Source: a virus. Taken from it: a stretch of 28,440 nt of DNA. The position numbers and the translations under genes were made by a program. This document shows, in pieces, positions 5,300-28,440 of this stretch. The notes beneath the pieces were generated by a model. That model had not been told where the DNA came from, ran no database searches, and saw only the letters and a program-made list of their open reading frames with translations. The stretch is taken from positions 1 to 28,440 of IMG/VR virus record IMGVR_UViG_3300043313_000540; one strand, written 5' to 3'. The stretch's first letter is position 1. Every line of letters begins with the position of its first letter.

Positions 5300-5878
5300 A
5301 TGACTACTCCTACGTTTGAAGACCTCGACGAGACTGCTGCTGTTGAGGCCGAGGATCTTGACGTTGATGTTGACACCAGTGGTGCTGAGGATGAGGCTGA
5401 GGATACCACCGATGCTTCGGACGCAAAGCCAGCTGCAGCTGACAAGCCTAAGAAAGAGAAGGCTCCGGCTCGTCCGCCAGTTGCGGATGGCTACGTCACG
5501 CCAGTTGACTTCGCAAAGATCCTGACGGATCACCTCGCTGCTCGTGGAGCTTCGAACAAGAATGGTCCCATCAGCAAGGAGAACCCAGTTCCTCCGCAGA
5601 TGGTGTACTCGTACATGAAGAACAACCAGGGTGGTAAGAACCCTATCCCGGTGCACACCGATCCTTCGCTTACCGGTGGACGTAATGCAGTCCTCCGTGT
5701 TGACGAGGCGCTAGCTTGGTGGGATGCTAAAGACGAGCGTATCGGTACTTCCAAGGCCACTAAGGCTGAGAAGGAAGCTGCTCGTGAGAAGGCTAAGGCT
5801 GAGAAGGCCGCTGCAGGCGGAGCTGAGGACATCACGGTTGCCACTGAGCCCGTTGGTGAAATTGAAGAAGCTGAGTGA
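5300..5878 (+). CDS. Conserved-type acidic/Lys-Ala-rich phage protein, 192 aa
   Basis: ATG 5300 has AAGGG 7 bases upstream; a TTG-led extension to 5261 would run through the leader hairpin. Residues 1-50 are very acidic (AAVEAEDLDVDVDTSGAEDE). Residues 63-145 form the folded core (YVTPVDFAKILTDHLAARG; PPQMVYSYMKNNQG; GGRNAVLRVDEALAWWDAKDE), like a small DNA- or partner-binding domain. The tail is Ala/Lys/Glu-rich and helical. Codons are strongly GC-ending and host-like, and the gene has its own promoter-like region, so it is probably an abundant phage protein. Actinobacteriophages encode similar 'YVTPV.fA..L' proteins, to my recollection without a known role. Confidence 0.75.
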   Translation: MTTPTFEDLDETAAVEAEDLDVDVDTSGAEDEAEDTTDASDAKPAAADKPKKEKAPARPPVADGYVTPVDFAKILTDHLAARGASNKNGPISKENPVPPQMVYSYMKNNQGGKNPIPVHTDPSLTGGRNAVLRVDEALAWWDAKDERIGTSKATKAEKEAAREKAKAEKAAAGGAEDITVATEPVGEIEEAE

Positions 5879-5904
5879 CAAAGTAACAAAGTAACAAAGT
5901 AACA
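5878..5904 (+). repeat. Three tandem 8-bp repeats (ACAAAGTA)
   Basis: ACAAAGTA occurs three times head to tail from 5878 to 5901 and a fourth copy begins (ACA). The array starts at the last base of the preceding stop codon. It probably arose by slippage; no role is evident. Confidence 0.85.
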
Positions 5905-5908
5905 CCTA

Positions 5909-5956
5909 GATGGCTGGGTCAAACCGTAGTCCAGATGAATTTACATCTGAGCCATC
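5909..5956 (+). terminator. Two-tier hairpin before the tRNA region
   Basis: GATGGCT (5909-5915) pairs with AGCCATC (5950-5956). Inside, CAGATG (5932-5937) pairs with CATCTG (5944-5949) and stacks directly on the 3' arm. It ends 4 bases before the first tRNA-like gene, so it may be a terminator for the 192-aa gene or a processing signal for the tRNA precursor. Confidence 0.5.
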
Positions 5957-6689: not shown

Positions 6690-6776
6690 GGGGTGGAACC
6701 CGGCGGAAAACAACGTGAAGGCCTCACTAGCCTCGGGTACATATGACATTTGCAGGTTCGAGTCCTGCCCACCCCA
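6690..6776 (+). tRNA. tRNA-like gene of class II length, identity uncertain
   Basis: Perfect acceptor GGGGTGG (6690-6696)/CCACCCC (6769-6775) and perfect T arm GCAGG-TTCGAGT-CCTGC, discriminator A. Length 87 suits a class II tRNA (Leu/Ser/Tyr). The only likely anticodon arm is AGGC-CTCACTA-GCCT, with U33 and formal anticodon CAC, which is Val and not expected in class II. The D arm (CCCGGCGGAAAACAACG region) does not pair well and position 8 is A. It may be a degenerate tRNA or a tRNA-like structure. Too short for tmRNA. Confidence 0.5.
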
Positions 6777-6779
6777 CTC

Positions 6780-6840
6780 GGACTAGATCCTAGCGCAATC
6801 TTACTTAGGTCAGCTGCGAGCAACAACTAGGATCTAGTCC
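6780..6840 (+). other. 14-bp perfect hairpin
   Basis: GGACTAGATCCTAG (6780-6793) pairs base for base with CTAGGATCTAGTCC (6827-6840). Inside, CGCA (6794-6797) can pair with TGCG (6815-6818). It follows directly after the tRNA-like gene. Among the strongest hairpins of the run; there is no T tract. Confidence 0.7.
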
Positions 6841-6847
6841 TTTAACT

Positions 6848-6909
6848 GTAGAGATAACTGGTATCATCCAAAACTTCCTTTGTGGTGTGTGCCAATCAGT
6901 TATTTCTAC
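6848..6909 (+). other. 13-bp hairpin
   Basis: GTAGAGATAACTG (6848-6860) pairs with CAGTTATTTCTAC (6897-6909) with a single G-U pair. The 36-base apical region could hold a small extra stem. It begins 8 bases after the previous hairpin. Confidence 0.65.
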
Positions 6910-6915
6910 TTAAAG

Positions 6916-6944
6916 CCAGTTGTGGTACTCGCATAGCACACTGG
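6916..6944 (+). other. 8-bp hairpin with one bulge
   Basis: CCAGTTGTG (6916-6924) pairs with CACACTGG (6937-6944) leaving one T bulged; 12-base loop. Part of the same run. Confidence 0.55.
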
Positions 6945-6953
6945 TTGCACAAA

Positions 6954-6982
6954 GACCCTCTCTGTTAGAACCAGAGAGGGTC
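6954..6982 (+). other. 11-bp perfect hairpin with 7-base loop
   Basis: GACCCTCTCTG (6954-6964) pairs with CAGAGAGGGTC (6972-6982) around TTAGAAC. It ends 4 bases before the next tRNA-like gene, so it may guide 5' processing. Confidence 0.7.
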
Positions 6983-6985
6983 CAA

Positions 6986-7060
6986 GCCTCTCATAGCTTA
7001 ATGGTAAAGCATTGCGGATTATTCCGTAAGTCTAAGGGGTTCGATTCCCCTGGGGAGGCA
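6986..7060 (+). tRNA. tRNA, identity uncertain (8-base anticodon loop)
   Basis: Acceptor GCCTCTC pairs with GGGAGGC, and one extra base on each side could extend it. D arm GCTTAATGGTAAAGC and perfect T arm AGGGG-TTCGATT-CCCCT follow. The anticodon stem TTGCG/CGTAA leaves an 8-base loop GATTATTC, or a longer stem TTGCGGA/TCCGTAA with only TTAT unpaired. With U33 as the third base the anticodon would be TAT (Ile, reading AUA), but base 37 is then T rather than A. Treat the identity as unresolved. Its 3' end abuts the start of the lipoprotein gene. Confidence 0.65.
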
Positions 7061-7061
7061 C

Positions 7062-7400
7062 GTGACAATTAAAAATATATTAGCAATCGCTACAGTACTT
7101 ATGGTTCTTGCAGCTTGTAAGAGTAAAGGACCTGAACCACTACCACTACCGACTACAACGATTAGTACCTCAGTTGTTCAGGTATGCGTCGAAGAGGCAA
7201 CAGGAAAACGATATCAAGATAAAGTATGCGACGATAAAACAGAAACGTTCATGTGGGTCTTCATTGTAGATGGTGGAGGAGAAAATCCATACATTCAGGC
7301 TGTAGGACAAATAGTTCCCAAAGAACGCTATCGTCTACAACGTCCAGCAGGTGTAGAGGTGTCTAGGGTTCCAGCAGATGGAGCCTACTTCACACGATAG
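7062..7400 (+). CDS. Phage lipoprotein, 112 aa
   Basis: GTG 7062 is the only start that gives a complete signal sequence; the GGGGAGG of the preceding tRNA acceptor doubles as ribosome binding site, 3 bases away. MTIKNILAIATVLMVLAAC is a type II signal peptide with lipobox L-A-A-C (residues 17-20), so Cys20 should be lipidated and the protein held on the outer face of the membrane. The mature part has a Pro/Thr linker, then CVEEATGKRYQDKVCDDKTE (two Cys that may form a disulphide) and a beta-rich remainder. Phage lipoproteins often act in superinfection exclusion; that role here is inference. Confidence 0.8.
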   Translation: MTIKNILAIATVLMVLAACKSKGPEPLPLPTTTISTSVVQVCVEEATGKRYQDKVCDDKTETFMWVFIVDGGGENPYIQAVGQIVPKERYRLQRPAGVEVSRVPADGAYFTR

Positions 7401-24014: not shown

Positions 24015-24183
24015 ATTCAGAATAGCTGATGATTCAGTACCAGATCCGTCAGGTAGCAATCATGGATATATTGTCTGGCATAAGACTTGTAACTACAGAC
24101 TACCTCTACGAGCACATATAATAGATAACCTTGATGAGCTAGTAGCGCTAGCAGAGGACCATAAATGTCCTACGAAGAAATAG
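24001..24183 (+). CDS. Small protein with Cys/His pair, 60 aa
   Basis: GTG 24001 lies in the end of the primase-helicase gene with AAGGG about 11 bases upstream. IVWHKTCNYRLPL and the C-terminal AEDHKCPTKK give H-x2-C...H-x-C, a possible zinc site. It overlaps queC by 19 bases. Not recognised. Confidence 0.6.
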   Translation: MDLSEFRIADDSVPDPSGSNHGYIVWHKTCNYRLPLRAHIIDNLDELVALAEDHKCPTKK

Positions 24184-25148
24184 TCAAACTACCCTGGGAC
24201 GATCCCAATAGAGATATCATGCAAGACTTTAAAGATGTCAAGGACAGGCACCGCGAAGCACATTACAGGGCAAACCCATACTACCTAACAAAAGAAGCAT
24301 ACAGAGAGCTGGTGCGGTTTTTTATGACGGAAAAGAAGTTCGATAGCGTTGCCATCGTTAGTGGTGGACTTGATTCAGTTACTCTTGCGTATCACATGGT
24401 TGCAGAAGGTTATACACCGCATCTTCTTTCGTTTAACTATGGACAGCGTCATGCTAAGGAACTTAGGTTCGCAGCTATTACAGCGAAGCACCTTAACCTT
24501 CGTCATGACACACTAGACCTCAGTGGTATAACCCATCTCATTTCCAACTCAGCTCTAACATCCATCGAGCTTACGGACCAGGTTGTTTACGTCGGTGAAG
24601 ATAAGCGCCCGGAGCCTATTGAAGTTCCGGATGGTCACTATGCCGAAGATAGCATGAAGCTAACAGTTGTTCCTAATCGCAACATGATCATGATTTCCGT
24701 TGCAGCTGGTATTGCTGTCAATAACAAGTATCGTTGTATTGCTACGGGTGTACATAGTGGCGATCACTTCATCTACCCTGATTGCCGACCAGCATTCATT
24801 GACGCCGTAGGTACTGCAATCGCCAAGGGTAATGAAGGTTTCAGCAACTTCAAACTAGATCCTACGCAGTCTTACGATGATCCCATCTACGCACCGTTTA
24901 TCAATGGCTCCAAGGCTGACATTGCTTATCGTGCAATTGAACTTGGTGTACCTCTTCACCTTACTTGGAGTTGTTACAAGGGTGGAATCAATCACTGTGG
25001 ACGTTGCGGTACTTGTGTGGAGCGTCTCGAAGCCATTGACGAAGCAATGAACAGGTTTAAGCCTGAATCAGATTGGGAAGACTTCCGAGACCAAACCATT
25101 TACGAAGACACTGAATTCTGGAAGACGGCGATTAAGAATGCAAATTAG
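24165..25148 (+). CDS. queC: 7-cyano-7-deazaguanine synthase QueC, 327 aa
   Basis: Turns 7-carboxy-7-deazaguanine into preQ0 with ammonia and ATP. ATG 24165 has AGAGGA upstream. The PP-loop SGGLDS stands at 66-71 (SVAIVSGGLDSVTLAYHM). NYGQRHAKEL, VVPNRNMIMIS, GVHSGDHFIYPDCRPAF and the C-terminal zinc site SCYKGG...HCGRCGTC near 268-284 are intact. It has a 53-residue N-terminal extension absent from typical QueC (about 230 residues); ATG 24324 would give the usual start but has no binding site. With queD and queE it points to preQ0 for DNA-guanine modification. Confidence 0.95.
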   Translation: MSYEEIVKLPWDDPNRDIMQDFKDVKDRHREAHYRANPYYLTKEAYRELVRFFMTEKKFDSVAIVSGGLDSVTLAYHMVAEGYTPHLLSFNYGQRHAKELRFAAITAKHLNLRHDTLDLSGITHLISNSALTSIELTDQVVYVGEDKRPEPIEVPDGHYAEDSMKLTVVPNRNMIMISVAAGIAVNNKYRCIATGVHSGDHFIYPDCRPAFIDAVGTAIAKGNEGFSNFKLDPTQSYDDPIYAPFINGSKADIAYRAIELGVPLHLTWSCYKGGINHCGRCGTCVERLEAIDEAMNRFKPESDWEDFRDQTIYEDTEFWKTAIKNAN

Positions 25149-25800: not shown

Positions 25801-25972
25801 AGTTCACGCACTACAGGAAGCAGTCAAAGTTGTAGTAGAAGCAGTACTTACACCAGCAGCAAGCATTCGTCATGCAATGGTAGAACCAAGTATCAAAGAA
25901 ATAGGTGACAGGATATTGGTCCTTGCCAAAGAATTTGAATTCTACTTGGCTACAGGAAACGTTGAATCATGA
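25769..25972 (+). CDS. Hypothetical helical protein, 67 aa
   Basis: GTG 25769 has AAGGAG 5 bases upstream. All helical (HALQEAVKVVVEAVLTPAAS; IKEIGDRILVLAKEFEFYLA). It overlaps the queD start (ATGA). Unknown. Confidence 0.6.
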   Translation: MDEQQNALSCRVHALQEAVKVVVEAVLTPAASIRHAMVEPSIKEIGDRILVLAKEFEFYLATGNVES

Positions 25973-26415
25973 GCTTCATCGTCGTACGCCACAATATAGA
26001 AGTTGCGCATAGGCTCTTTGAGCTTGAGGGTGACAAGTGTCAGAACATCCATGGGCACAGTATGTGGGTAGAGATGAAGCTACACGGACATATCAACAAG
26101 CATGGGCTCCTAGAGGGACTTAACTTCGGAGATGTGAAGAAGGAATTCCGAGGATTCCTAGATAAGAACTACGACCACCACCTCCTACTCAACGAGAACG
26201 ATCCTTGGGCTCAAGACCTTGACCCTGAGCAGCGATACGATGGGTCGACAAAACCTATACTCCTACCTGGACTAATGGCTACACCAGGTGATCCATCTAC
26301 AGAGAACATTGCTAAGTGGATTGCTACTTGGGCTGTTGCAACATTCAAACTTAAGGTTGACGTAGCAGTTCAAGAGACACACGTTAACGGTGCAGGATTT
26401 TCGGAGAAGCCTTAA
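25969..26415 (+). CDS. queD: 6-carboxy-5,6,7,8-tetrahydropterin synthase QueD, 148 aa
   Basis: Makes 6-carboxytetrahydropterin from dihydroneopterin triphosphate, the step before QueE. ATG 25969 overlaps the previous stop. His14 (EVAHRLF), His28 and His30 (NIHGHSM) are the zinc ligands and Cys24 (DKCQNIHGH) the catalytic Cys. DKNYDHHLLLN near 67-77, PSTENIAKWI near 109 and the late Glu in QETHVNG complete the family marks. Length is slightly above E. coli QueD because of an insertion around residues 83-100. The gene is GC-richer than its neighbours. Confidence 0.95.
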   Translation: MSFIVVRHNIEVAHRLFELEGDKCQNIHGHSMWVEMKLHGHINKHGLLEGLNFGDVKKEFRGFLDKNYDHHLLLNENDPWAQDLDPEQRYDGSTKPILLPGLMATPGDPSTENIAKWIATWAVATFKLKVDVAVQETHVNGAGFSEKP

Positions 26416-26585
26416 TGGAAGCTAATCTTTACGTGCCCCCAACACAACCAATATTGACAATTCAATTTGACTCAGTAGCTGAAGCTAAAGAGCTATATGA
26501 CGAACTCCGTATGTGGAATACTGGTAGTAAAAGTGCCGTAATGCAACAGTTCTTTAAAGCTTTGGAAGGAATATTTACAAAATGA
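26415..26585 (+). CDS. Hypothetical small protein, 56 aa
   Basis: ATG 26415 overlaps the queD stop (TAATG). ILTIQFDSVAEAKELYDELR is a strand then a helix, and AVMQQFFKALEGIFTK is another helix. It overlaps the next gene by ATGA. Unknown; coupled to queD. Confidence 0.6.
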   Translation: MEANLYVPPTQPILTIQFDSVAEAKELYDELRMWNTGSKSAVMQQFFKALEGIFTK

Positions 26586-26764
26586 CGGCTATGACACCTA
26601 TCAAGAGGCTAGTTCGACGAGACAATAAAATCTTTATTGAAGACTATACTGGCAAGGAGAACTTGGTTGCTGAAAGCCCGACTAGAGCACAAGCATCTTG
26701 GGTTGTCTTTGGACTTGGTTCTCACCACGGAGTTTCAACAGCCGAATATGATGAGGATGAGTGA
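26582..26764 (+). CDS. Hypothetical small protein, 60 aa
   Basis: ATG 26582 overlaps the previous stop with GAAGGAA about 11 bases upstream. Begins TPIKRLVRRDNKIFIEDYTG, ends in an acidic AEYDEDE. Unknown. It overlaps the homing endonuclease start. Confidence 0.55.
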   Translation: MTAMTPIKRLVRRDNKIFIEDYTGKENLVAESPTRAQASWVVFGLGSHHGVSTAEYDEDE

Positions 26765-27212
26765 TACAATCGATGTCAGCTCATTTACCAAAACACCTAA
26801 GTTGATAGAGCCGGCTTACGCTGCAGGTATATTTGATGCCGATGGCTGTATAGGTATCTATGAAGCTATGAAGAACAATCAACACAGAAGATATATGCGT
26901 ATACAAGTTATGGTTGCAGGTATGCACGGAGGTATGCTTGGACAGTTCAAACTACGTTATGGTGGTTCTGTCTGTTATCAATCAGAATTGTGTAAGCAAT
27001 GGCGACAGGACTCTAAGGAAAAAGTTAGAATATTCCTAGAGGAAATACGACCTTTTAGTATCGTAAAAGCAAAACAAATAGATGTGGGATTACGTTTCTT
27101 AAGTATTCCAAGGTCCTCTCGCGAGCCTAATCATAGAATAGAACGTGAAGAACTACGAGCTCTCATAAAGGAGCTCAAGAAGGAGGTGGTGCCATATGAG
27201 TCTGAAGCCTGA
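26757..27212 (+). CDS. LAGLIDADG homing endonuclease, 151 aa
   Basis: ATG 26757 (MSDTIDVSSF) overlaps the previous stop; ATGs at 26748 and 26751 are equally possible. AAGIFDADG at residues 22-30 is the LAGLIDADG helix with its catalytic Asp, followed by a strand CIGIYEAMKN, basic strands (NQHRRYMRIQVMVAG) and the later KEKVRIFLEEIRPFSIVKAK, which fits the single-motif subclass that works as a homodimer. It stands free, not within an intein or visible intron. It lies directly upstream of queE, overlapping its ATG by 17 bases, and queE is disrupted close by. It probably cuts a related allele and spreads by repair. Confidence 0.85.
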   Translation: MSDTIDVSSFTKTPKLIEPAYAAGIFDADGCIGIYEAMKNNQHRRYMRIQVMVAGMHGGMLGQFKLRYGGSVCYQSELCKQWRQDSKEKVRIFLEEIRPFSIVKAKQIDVGLRFLSIPRSSREPNHRIEREELRALIKELKKEVVPYESEA

Positions 27213-27956
27213 TACTATAGACGTGTCTGAAATCTTCGGACCCACTTAGCTATCCAAGGTGAGGGTGCAGCAGCAGGAAGGCATTGCCTCTTTATTAGGA
27301 CGGCTAATTGCAACTTGGAATGCACTTGGTGTGACACTGCATACACGTGGGCCTTTACACCAGATAAAGCTGCACGAACTGAATCAGGTATCCAGTATAG
27401 TAAAGAAGAAAACATTCATCCCATGTCAGTCGGTGATGTCCTTGTTGATCTAGAGAAGCTATGGCCTATCTACGACAAGCCCACTATGATTGTCATCTCT
27501 GGTGGCGAACCGCTGATACAGGCTAAGAAGTTGGAACCACTAGTTCAGAAGCTTTGCAACTTGGAATGTGAAGTACACATTGAGACTGCTGGAACGCTAA
27601 AGCCTACAGAGTTCCTAGACCGATACGTTGCACAGTATAACGTATCACCTAAACTATCACACAGTGGCAACCGTACGAGTAAGAGGTATAGGCCTCAGGT
27701 GCTTCAGTGGTTTGCACAGTGGGAGAAGAGCTGGTTCAAGTTCGTCATTCGTAATCTTGGTGACTTTGTTGAGATTGACCAGATGGTAAGAGAATGTAGT
27801 ATCGACACTAGAAATGTTATGGTGATGCCAGAAGGTATAACTATTGACAAGAATATTGGTCATGCAAGACTAATCGCTGAAGCTGCTATCGAACGTGGCT
27901 ATGGCATTTCATTCCGTACACATATTCTACTTTGGAAAGATGTTCGAGGTAAATAA
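27196..27956 (+). CDS. queE: 7-carboxy-7-deazaguanine synthase QueE, apparently frameshifted
   Basis: Radical-SAM step from QueD product to 7-carboxy-7-deazaguanine. ATG 27196 has AGGAGG 9 bases upstream and reads MSLKPDTIDVSEIFGPT, then TAG 27247-27249. The rest continues in the -1 frame from 27246: LAIQGEGAAAGRHCLFIRTA, then NCNLECTWCDT (the CX3CX2C cluster site). ISGGEPL, VSPKLSHSGN, FKFVI and RTHILLWKDVRGK follow. Relative to the family's FGPT-I-QGEG there are five extra bases (27247-27251). No ATG or GTG rescues the -1 frame; TTG 27315 would lose the first cluster Cys. It may be a pseudogene, recoded, or a sequencing error. Confidence 0.85.
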
Positions 27957-28009
27957 ATTCGAGTATTTGATTACTCACTGTATCAAGACTCCACAGGGGT
28001 GTGAACAGG

Positions 28010-28366
28010 GTGTTTCGATCCAAAGAAGAGCTTGAGACATGGCTAGAGCAGACTGAACCTGATTGGTGGGCTGGTCTGCCTGTAGGTAAGAAGAATAAAT
28101 ACACATGCATCTTGTGCAACTATACAATAGTCACGCTCGATAAGGATCGTGGCGTTACACCAATGTATAAGACATGTGAAAAGTGTGGCCTAGAGATGCG
28201 TAGTCACTTCTACCGTGTGGACTCAGAATCGACTGCTACACATATTTGGTATAGGCCAGATGGTGAAGAACTGCAAAAGCTGCTACAAGATGAACGTTAC
28301 GCTGATCACTACCGTCGTGGTGGACTGCAACTTAGGGAGCTAGGATGTCACGTAAGACAGGCTTGA
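28010..28366 (+). CDS. Zinc-ribbon protein, 118 aa
   Basis: GTG 28010 has AGGGG 10 bases upstream; GTG 28001 would add three residues but sits on that site. A Trp-rich helix (EELETWLEQTEPDWWAGL) precedes a zinc ribbon: YTCILCNYTI, 22 residues, then KTCEKCGLEM. The C-terminal part is basic and helical. Possibly a DNA- or protein-binding factor; position after queE might mean a role in DNA modification, but only by neighbourhood. The upstream gap holds a CCACAGGGG arm of the hairpin family. Confidence 0.7.
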   Translation: MFRSKEELETWLEQTEPDWWAGLPVGKKNKYTCILCNYTIVTLDKDRGVTPMYKTCEKCGLEMRSHFYRVDSESTATHIWYRPDGEELQKLLQDERYADHYRRGGLQLRELGCHVRQA

Positions 28367-28440
28367 GTTCATTTCAGAAGTACAAGACTATTATAGTCGA
28401 CAGGAAAAAGAAGATCATTCCTAGAGACTTTGGCAATCCT
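28345..28440 (+). CDS. N-terminus of a truncated gene
   Basis: ATG 28345 has AGGGAG 6-7 bases upstream and overlaps the previous gene. It reads MSRKTGLSSFQKYKTIIVDR and stays open to the window end (32 codons). Basic N-terminus; too short to assign. Confidence 0.55.
   Translation, partial: MSRKTGLSSFQKYKTIIVDRKKKIIPRDFGNP

Follow-up and report, generated by a model that had tools for sequence, protein, structure and literature searches.

A putative homing unit with a reworded queE 5' end at a frame break in a phage queE gene

In the window, by which the whole stretch of 28440 bases analysed here is meant, queE is cut off after 17 codons by five extra bases beside a homing endonuclease gene (HEG), and QueE function has presumably been lost. 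The two proteins share a short N-terminal word that is largely encoded by different codons, and the same kind of sharing is found at queE of a distant, unrelated phage contig (L076), which was brought up by a wider search. The best reading, to which we assign a probability of about one half, is that a homing unit, in which the endonuclease gene is joined to a reworded 5' end of queE, settled at this gene, with the five bases representing a scar of imprecise repair.

The queE reading frame and its break

The 5' part of queE (27196–27249, plus strand) starts with the ATG at 27196, nine bases 3' of the ribosome-binding site AAGGAGG (27180–27186, plus strand), which lies inside the endonuclease gene. 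The protein begins MSLKPDTIDVSEIFGPT, and directly after SEIFGPT the frame meets the stop codon TAG at 27247–27249. The QueE body resumes at 27252 with ATC CAA GGT GAG GGT in the -1 frame, equivalently +5, and this remainder (27252–27956, plus strand) runs to the stop codon TAA at 27954–27956. In close relatives the corresponding N-terminal region reads FGPT-(I/V/F/L)QGEG without a gap, compared to which the window carries exactly five extra bases, TAGCT (27247–27251, plus strand). Due to the context A-CT-TAG-CT-ATC the placement of the insert is ambiguous and could equally be given as CTTAG or TTAGC, and since the window contains 33 such 5-mers, a template cannot be named.

Split over two frames, the protein retains the motifs QGEG, CX3CX2C and GGEP and is assigned to the QueE family by profile comparison (PHROG 2076 QueE, E 3e-50; Pfam Radical_SAM). 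The break is confirmed as real in the record as given. A previous sequence-only reading of this DNA had placed a frame break after FGPT, counted five extra bases, judged all later QueE motifs intact and located a LAGLIDADG gene just upstream, and each of these points is borne out by the present comparison.

The gene was compared with 98 distinct queE loci carrying the motif, which were fetched from IMG/VR. In 97 of these queE is intact, in one it is cut by the contig edge and in none is it broken; the alignment with related phages that had been proposed as a check thus places the five bases in no relative. A search of viral_contigs with the pattern ACTTAGCTATCCARGG for other copies of the insertion returned nine loci, none of them in queE, and a pattern search with the QueE N-terminal sequence IDVSEIFGPT remained without a match. 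At 75 near-invariant alignment columns the QueE body of the window shows no departure, which suggests that the break is either recent or compensated.

Surroundings of queE

Two further genes of the same pathway are intact in the window, namely queC (24165–25148, plus strand; Pfam QueC, E 1e-51) and queD (25969–26415, plus strand; Pfam PTPS, E 4e-20). Relatives display the gene order primase, queC and then queD and queE in variable arrangement; in one of them (L037) queD-like matches at 5429–5920 and 6750–7169 flank queE on each side. The queD–queE interval of the window contains two small genes and the endonuclease gene. One of the small genes (26582–26764), situated between queD and the endonuclease gene, comprises 60 codons without detectable relatives, and its stop codon overlaps the endonuclease start.

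An accumulation of LAGLIDADG genes was seen near que genes in another contig (L063, 1706–4398), where three of them lie within less than 3 kb around queC together with pieces of an apparent Walker-A/Walker-B ATPase gene. The Walker-B piece shows an apparent change of frame shortly after an endonuclease gene.

The endonuclease and its family

The endonuclease gene extends from 26757 to 27212 (plus strand), with further in-frame ATG codons at 26748 and 26751, and overlaps queE with its last 17 bases (27196–27212). The protein belongs to PHROG 5046 (E 1e-14) and contains a single LAGLIDADG motif, AGIFDADG, in a family in which Y, AG, D and G are invariant. Comparison of the family profile with the PDB yielded I-MsoI (1.5e-18) and I-CreI (about 1e-9), and the predicted model (pLDDT 90) was matched to I-CreI and I-MsoI by Foldseek with TM-scores of 0.71–0.75 and a probability of 1.00. 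By motif and predicted fold the protein is therefore an I-CreI/I-MsoI-type LAGLIDADG protein, for which DNA cleavage is predicted. The confidence of the model is lowest over residues 1–10, as would be expected if an N-terminal piece was added.

Close relatives of the window endonuclease were not detected in viral_contigs. With the window HEG as query, an endonuclease gene between queD and queE was found in none of the relatives L001–L037, and among about 140 further fetched queE loci only L076 carries one. None of the sequenced phages among the matches listed has an endonuclease beside queE, and the collections contained no close relative without the element that could serve as an empty site.

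The nearest sequenced relatives of the endonuclease are encoded by Streptomyces phages, where they are located directly before thyX and mostly overlap its start. PHROG 5046 endonucleases upstream of thyX are found in Samisti12, Navo, Braelyn, Sushi23, Gilson and Anedea, and family members directly precede a DNA methyltransferase gene in Faust and a DHH gene in CcrRogue. Related endonuclease genes sit at the thyX start of L049, L048, L052, L053, L054 and L055. The thyX cases resemble the window in protein family and in that a conserved enzyme gene follows immediately, its start mostly overlapped by the endonuclease gene, but differ in that the target is thyX, its N-terminus is not common to the endonuclease and its frame is intact. 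Comparison of thyX 5' ends with and without an adjacent HEG revealed different first codons and no copied N-terminus. A different arrangement occurs in Gordonia phage Ailee (L056, 1095–2969), where a DNA methylase gene contains a LAGLIDADG reading frame in a different frame; the methylase's own frame is open throughout, and the record annotates the methylase as two joined pieces.

Shared N-terminal words in two phages

The window endonuclease starts with MSDTIDVSSFTKTP. Its N-terminus, MS-DTIDVS, shares the word DTIDVS with that of QueE, MSLKP-DTIDVS, and five of the six shared codons are changed. The first eight endonuclease codons (26757–26780, plus strand; MSDTIDVS) may be left over from an older 5' end of queE, a proposal made post hoc for a short stretch.

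In L076 a member of the same endonuclease family (852–1253) is situated between queD and an intact queE (1250–1936). The endonuclease begins MLRLSELEAAYIAGLF and queE begins MMLRLSELYISTQGEG, so that the words MLRLSEL and (M)MLRLSEL stand at the start of both proteins, again in different codons (ATG TTA CGT CTG AGT GAA CTA versus ATG TTG CGC CTA TCA GAA CTC for the seven residues). Relatives of the L076 queE that lack an HEG start likewise, for instance L153 with MLRLSELYTSVQGEG, and several members of the endonuclease family have only a handful of residues ahead of the motif, for instance one starting with MIETDLAYAAGLF; MLRLSEL therefore appears to belong to QueE and to be foreign to the endonuclease. 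Among bacterial genomes one weak and partial match to the L076 endonuclease was obtained.

The words shared in the window and in L076 are unrelated to each other. In both phages the endonuclease gene begins within the end of the preceding gene, which is queD in L076 and the small reading frame 26582–26764 in the window, as the original queE start may do. The candidate displaced fragment of the target gene beside the endonuclease is short, comprising eight codons in the window and seven in L076.

A word of six residues is shared by about 4 in 300000 random N-termini, and none of 1273 real neighbouring gene pairs shares a word of six or more, none going beyond five; these numbers come from a test devised after the likeness had been noticed and refer to two cases with short words. 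Over 87 loci of the wider endonuclease family, sharing of the N-terminus with the next gene showed no excess.

This lack of a general likeness among family members is in line with a rival explanation, which we regard as less likely: the endonuclease could be an ordinary free-standing neighbour with a coincidental resemblance to QueE, and the five bases a loss-of-function mutation that arose at random and independently of it. Loss of accessory genes is frequent in phages, and the alignment score does not set the window match apart when taken alone, since 121 of 200000 random sequences attain the score of the pair and other N-termini of the window score as high against that of the HEG. However, a coincidence would have to account for the same likeness at the same gene and in the same place in L076, and for its absence from the other neighbouring pairs. 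Moreover, a random break beside a rare endonuclease would itself be coincidental, given that queE is unbroken in all 97 complete relatives. The main support for a meaningful N-terminal likeness comes from L076, as a second case at queE. Found in an unrelated phage, it suggests that selfish genes of this type capture the 5' end of queE and provide a reworded substitute for it.

A proposed homing unit and its presumed repair scar

In the proposed unit, a reworded copy of the first queE codons, belonging to the unit and including a ribosome-binding site, would follow the endonuclease gene. On entry, the start of the resident queE would be captured for the endonuclease gene, which would then begin with it, and the copy carried by the unit would become the new queE start. 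The changed codons may protect the reworded end from cutting. If capture took place in this way, queE of a relative lacking the HEG should start like MSDTIDVSEIFGPT. In L076 the join would have been seamless, leaving queE intact; in the window the five bases following the new 5' part, which ends with FGPT, are most likely the scar of an imprecise break repair.

The position of the insert is compatible with such an origin. The insert is placed 19 bases 3' of the last codon of the shared word, a distance covered by a LAGLIDADG site, so that an imprecise repair or join would be its natural source. The 4-base staggered cuts of LAGLIDADG enzymes leave small indels on end joining, as described for the cleavage of FBA1 by WHO elements (PMC7282813). 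Imprecise repair after cleavage of queE is therefore a plausible source of TAGCT.

Alternatively, the five bases could be an assembly or sequencing error, and the window, being a lone virus record from a metagenome, offers a single contig to judge from. We consider an error improbable, as the five bases lie outside any homopolymer, which would be unusual for an error, and as no second frame break was found where genes of relatives align with the window, in which many small genes have no comparable relative.

Programmed recoding, which the sequence-only reading had put forward as an alternative, is less probable still; it could take the form of a +5 hop over TAG as a small version of the bypassing in T4 gene 60. 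The stop directly after the last matched codon and the fully conserved QueE body would suit it, a threonine tRNA could shift from ACU to GCU at 27249–27251 via a G-U pair, and in T4 gene 60, too, bypassing arose next to a homing endonuclease gene. However, the take-off and landing codons (ACT and GCT) are unmatched, as they should not be in translational bypassing, and the insertion is present in none of the relatives. A programmed -1 frameshift would involve a slippery heptamer and a stimulatory structure. The sequence contains no such heptamer, as had been remarked before, and with a z-score of -0.13 the downstream RNA fold is no more stable than shuffled sequences, leaving recoding unsupported. 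T4 gene 60 itself resembles the window in having a stop right after the last matched codon and a homing endonuclease gene adjacent, whereas in the window the gap measures 5 instead of 50 bases, the take-off and landing codons do not match and a stimulatory structure was not found.

A rescue of queE by a self-splicing intron or by translation restart can practically be dismissed: homing endonucleases are frequently found within introns, but five bases are too few to hold one and a search of 26000–28440 against Rfam gave no match up to an E of 5, which as far as Rfam can tell excludes a group I intron core, while before the first radical-SAM cysteine the new frame offers only ATC 27252 and ATT 27294 as start-like codons, in agreement with the earlier statement that a usual start is lacking, and no ribosome-binding site is seen ahead of either.

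Relation to known homing systems

The closest parallel to the proposed unit is provided by the WHO elements of Torulaspora and Lachancea yeasts, in which an endonuclease gene is mobilized together with an FBA1 end that confers resistance; on each entry this end takes the place of the resident FBA1 end, and the old one is left behind as a fragment (Coughlan et al. 2020, PMC7282813). Both systems would combine an endonuclease gene with an end of the target gene that is replaced on entry, both would have resistant and sensitive versions that differ in sequence, and in both imprecise end joining would give rise to small indels at the cut. In contrast to the WHO elements, which reside in yeast, act on the 3' end of FBA1 and encode an intein-derived enzyme with zinc fingers, the proposed window unit is found in a phage, at the 5' end of queE, with a small I-CreI-like enzyme and with the putative displaced piece fused to the endonuclease. 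The arrangement in the window is thus best read as something like a mirror image of the WHO elements. It does not belong to them, since enzyme type, gene and gene end differ, and at most works alike.

Free-standing selfish endonucleases next to or inside conserved phage genes are represented in T4-like phages by the mob and seg genes, and endonuclease insertions split genes such as nrdA of Aeh1 and gene 60 of T4, according to the parts of PMC2988022 drawn on here. The free-standing types covered in those parts are HNH and GIY-YIG enzymes, whereas the window enzyme is of the LAGLIDADG type, and a duplicated, differently worded gene end is not described there for T4-like phages (PMC2988022).

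Implications

As a more tentative proposition than the reading of the window itself, phage homing units may enter the 5' end of a gene, borrow its start and return a reworded, cut-resistant 5' end, the window displaying a faulty joint. If true, a mode of homing described from yeast would extend to phages, with a selfish gene protecting both itself and its host gene by means of a reworded end. Such a mode would account for the position of small LAGLIDADG genes precisely at the starts of phage enzyme genes, as well as for the break of one such enzyme gene at this very point. Since queE is needed for making a modified DNA base, a phage with QueC, QueD and a broken QueE also bears on the question of whether DNA modification proceeds by the phage alone or depends on host enzymes. 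Taken alone, the disruption of an accessory gene in a single metagenomic phage would be of limited interest. It is the occurrence of shared but differently worded N-termini in two unrelated phages that opens up a testable and less ordinary possibility.
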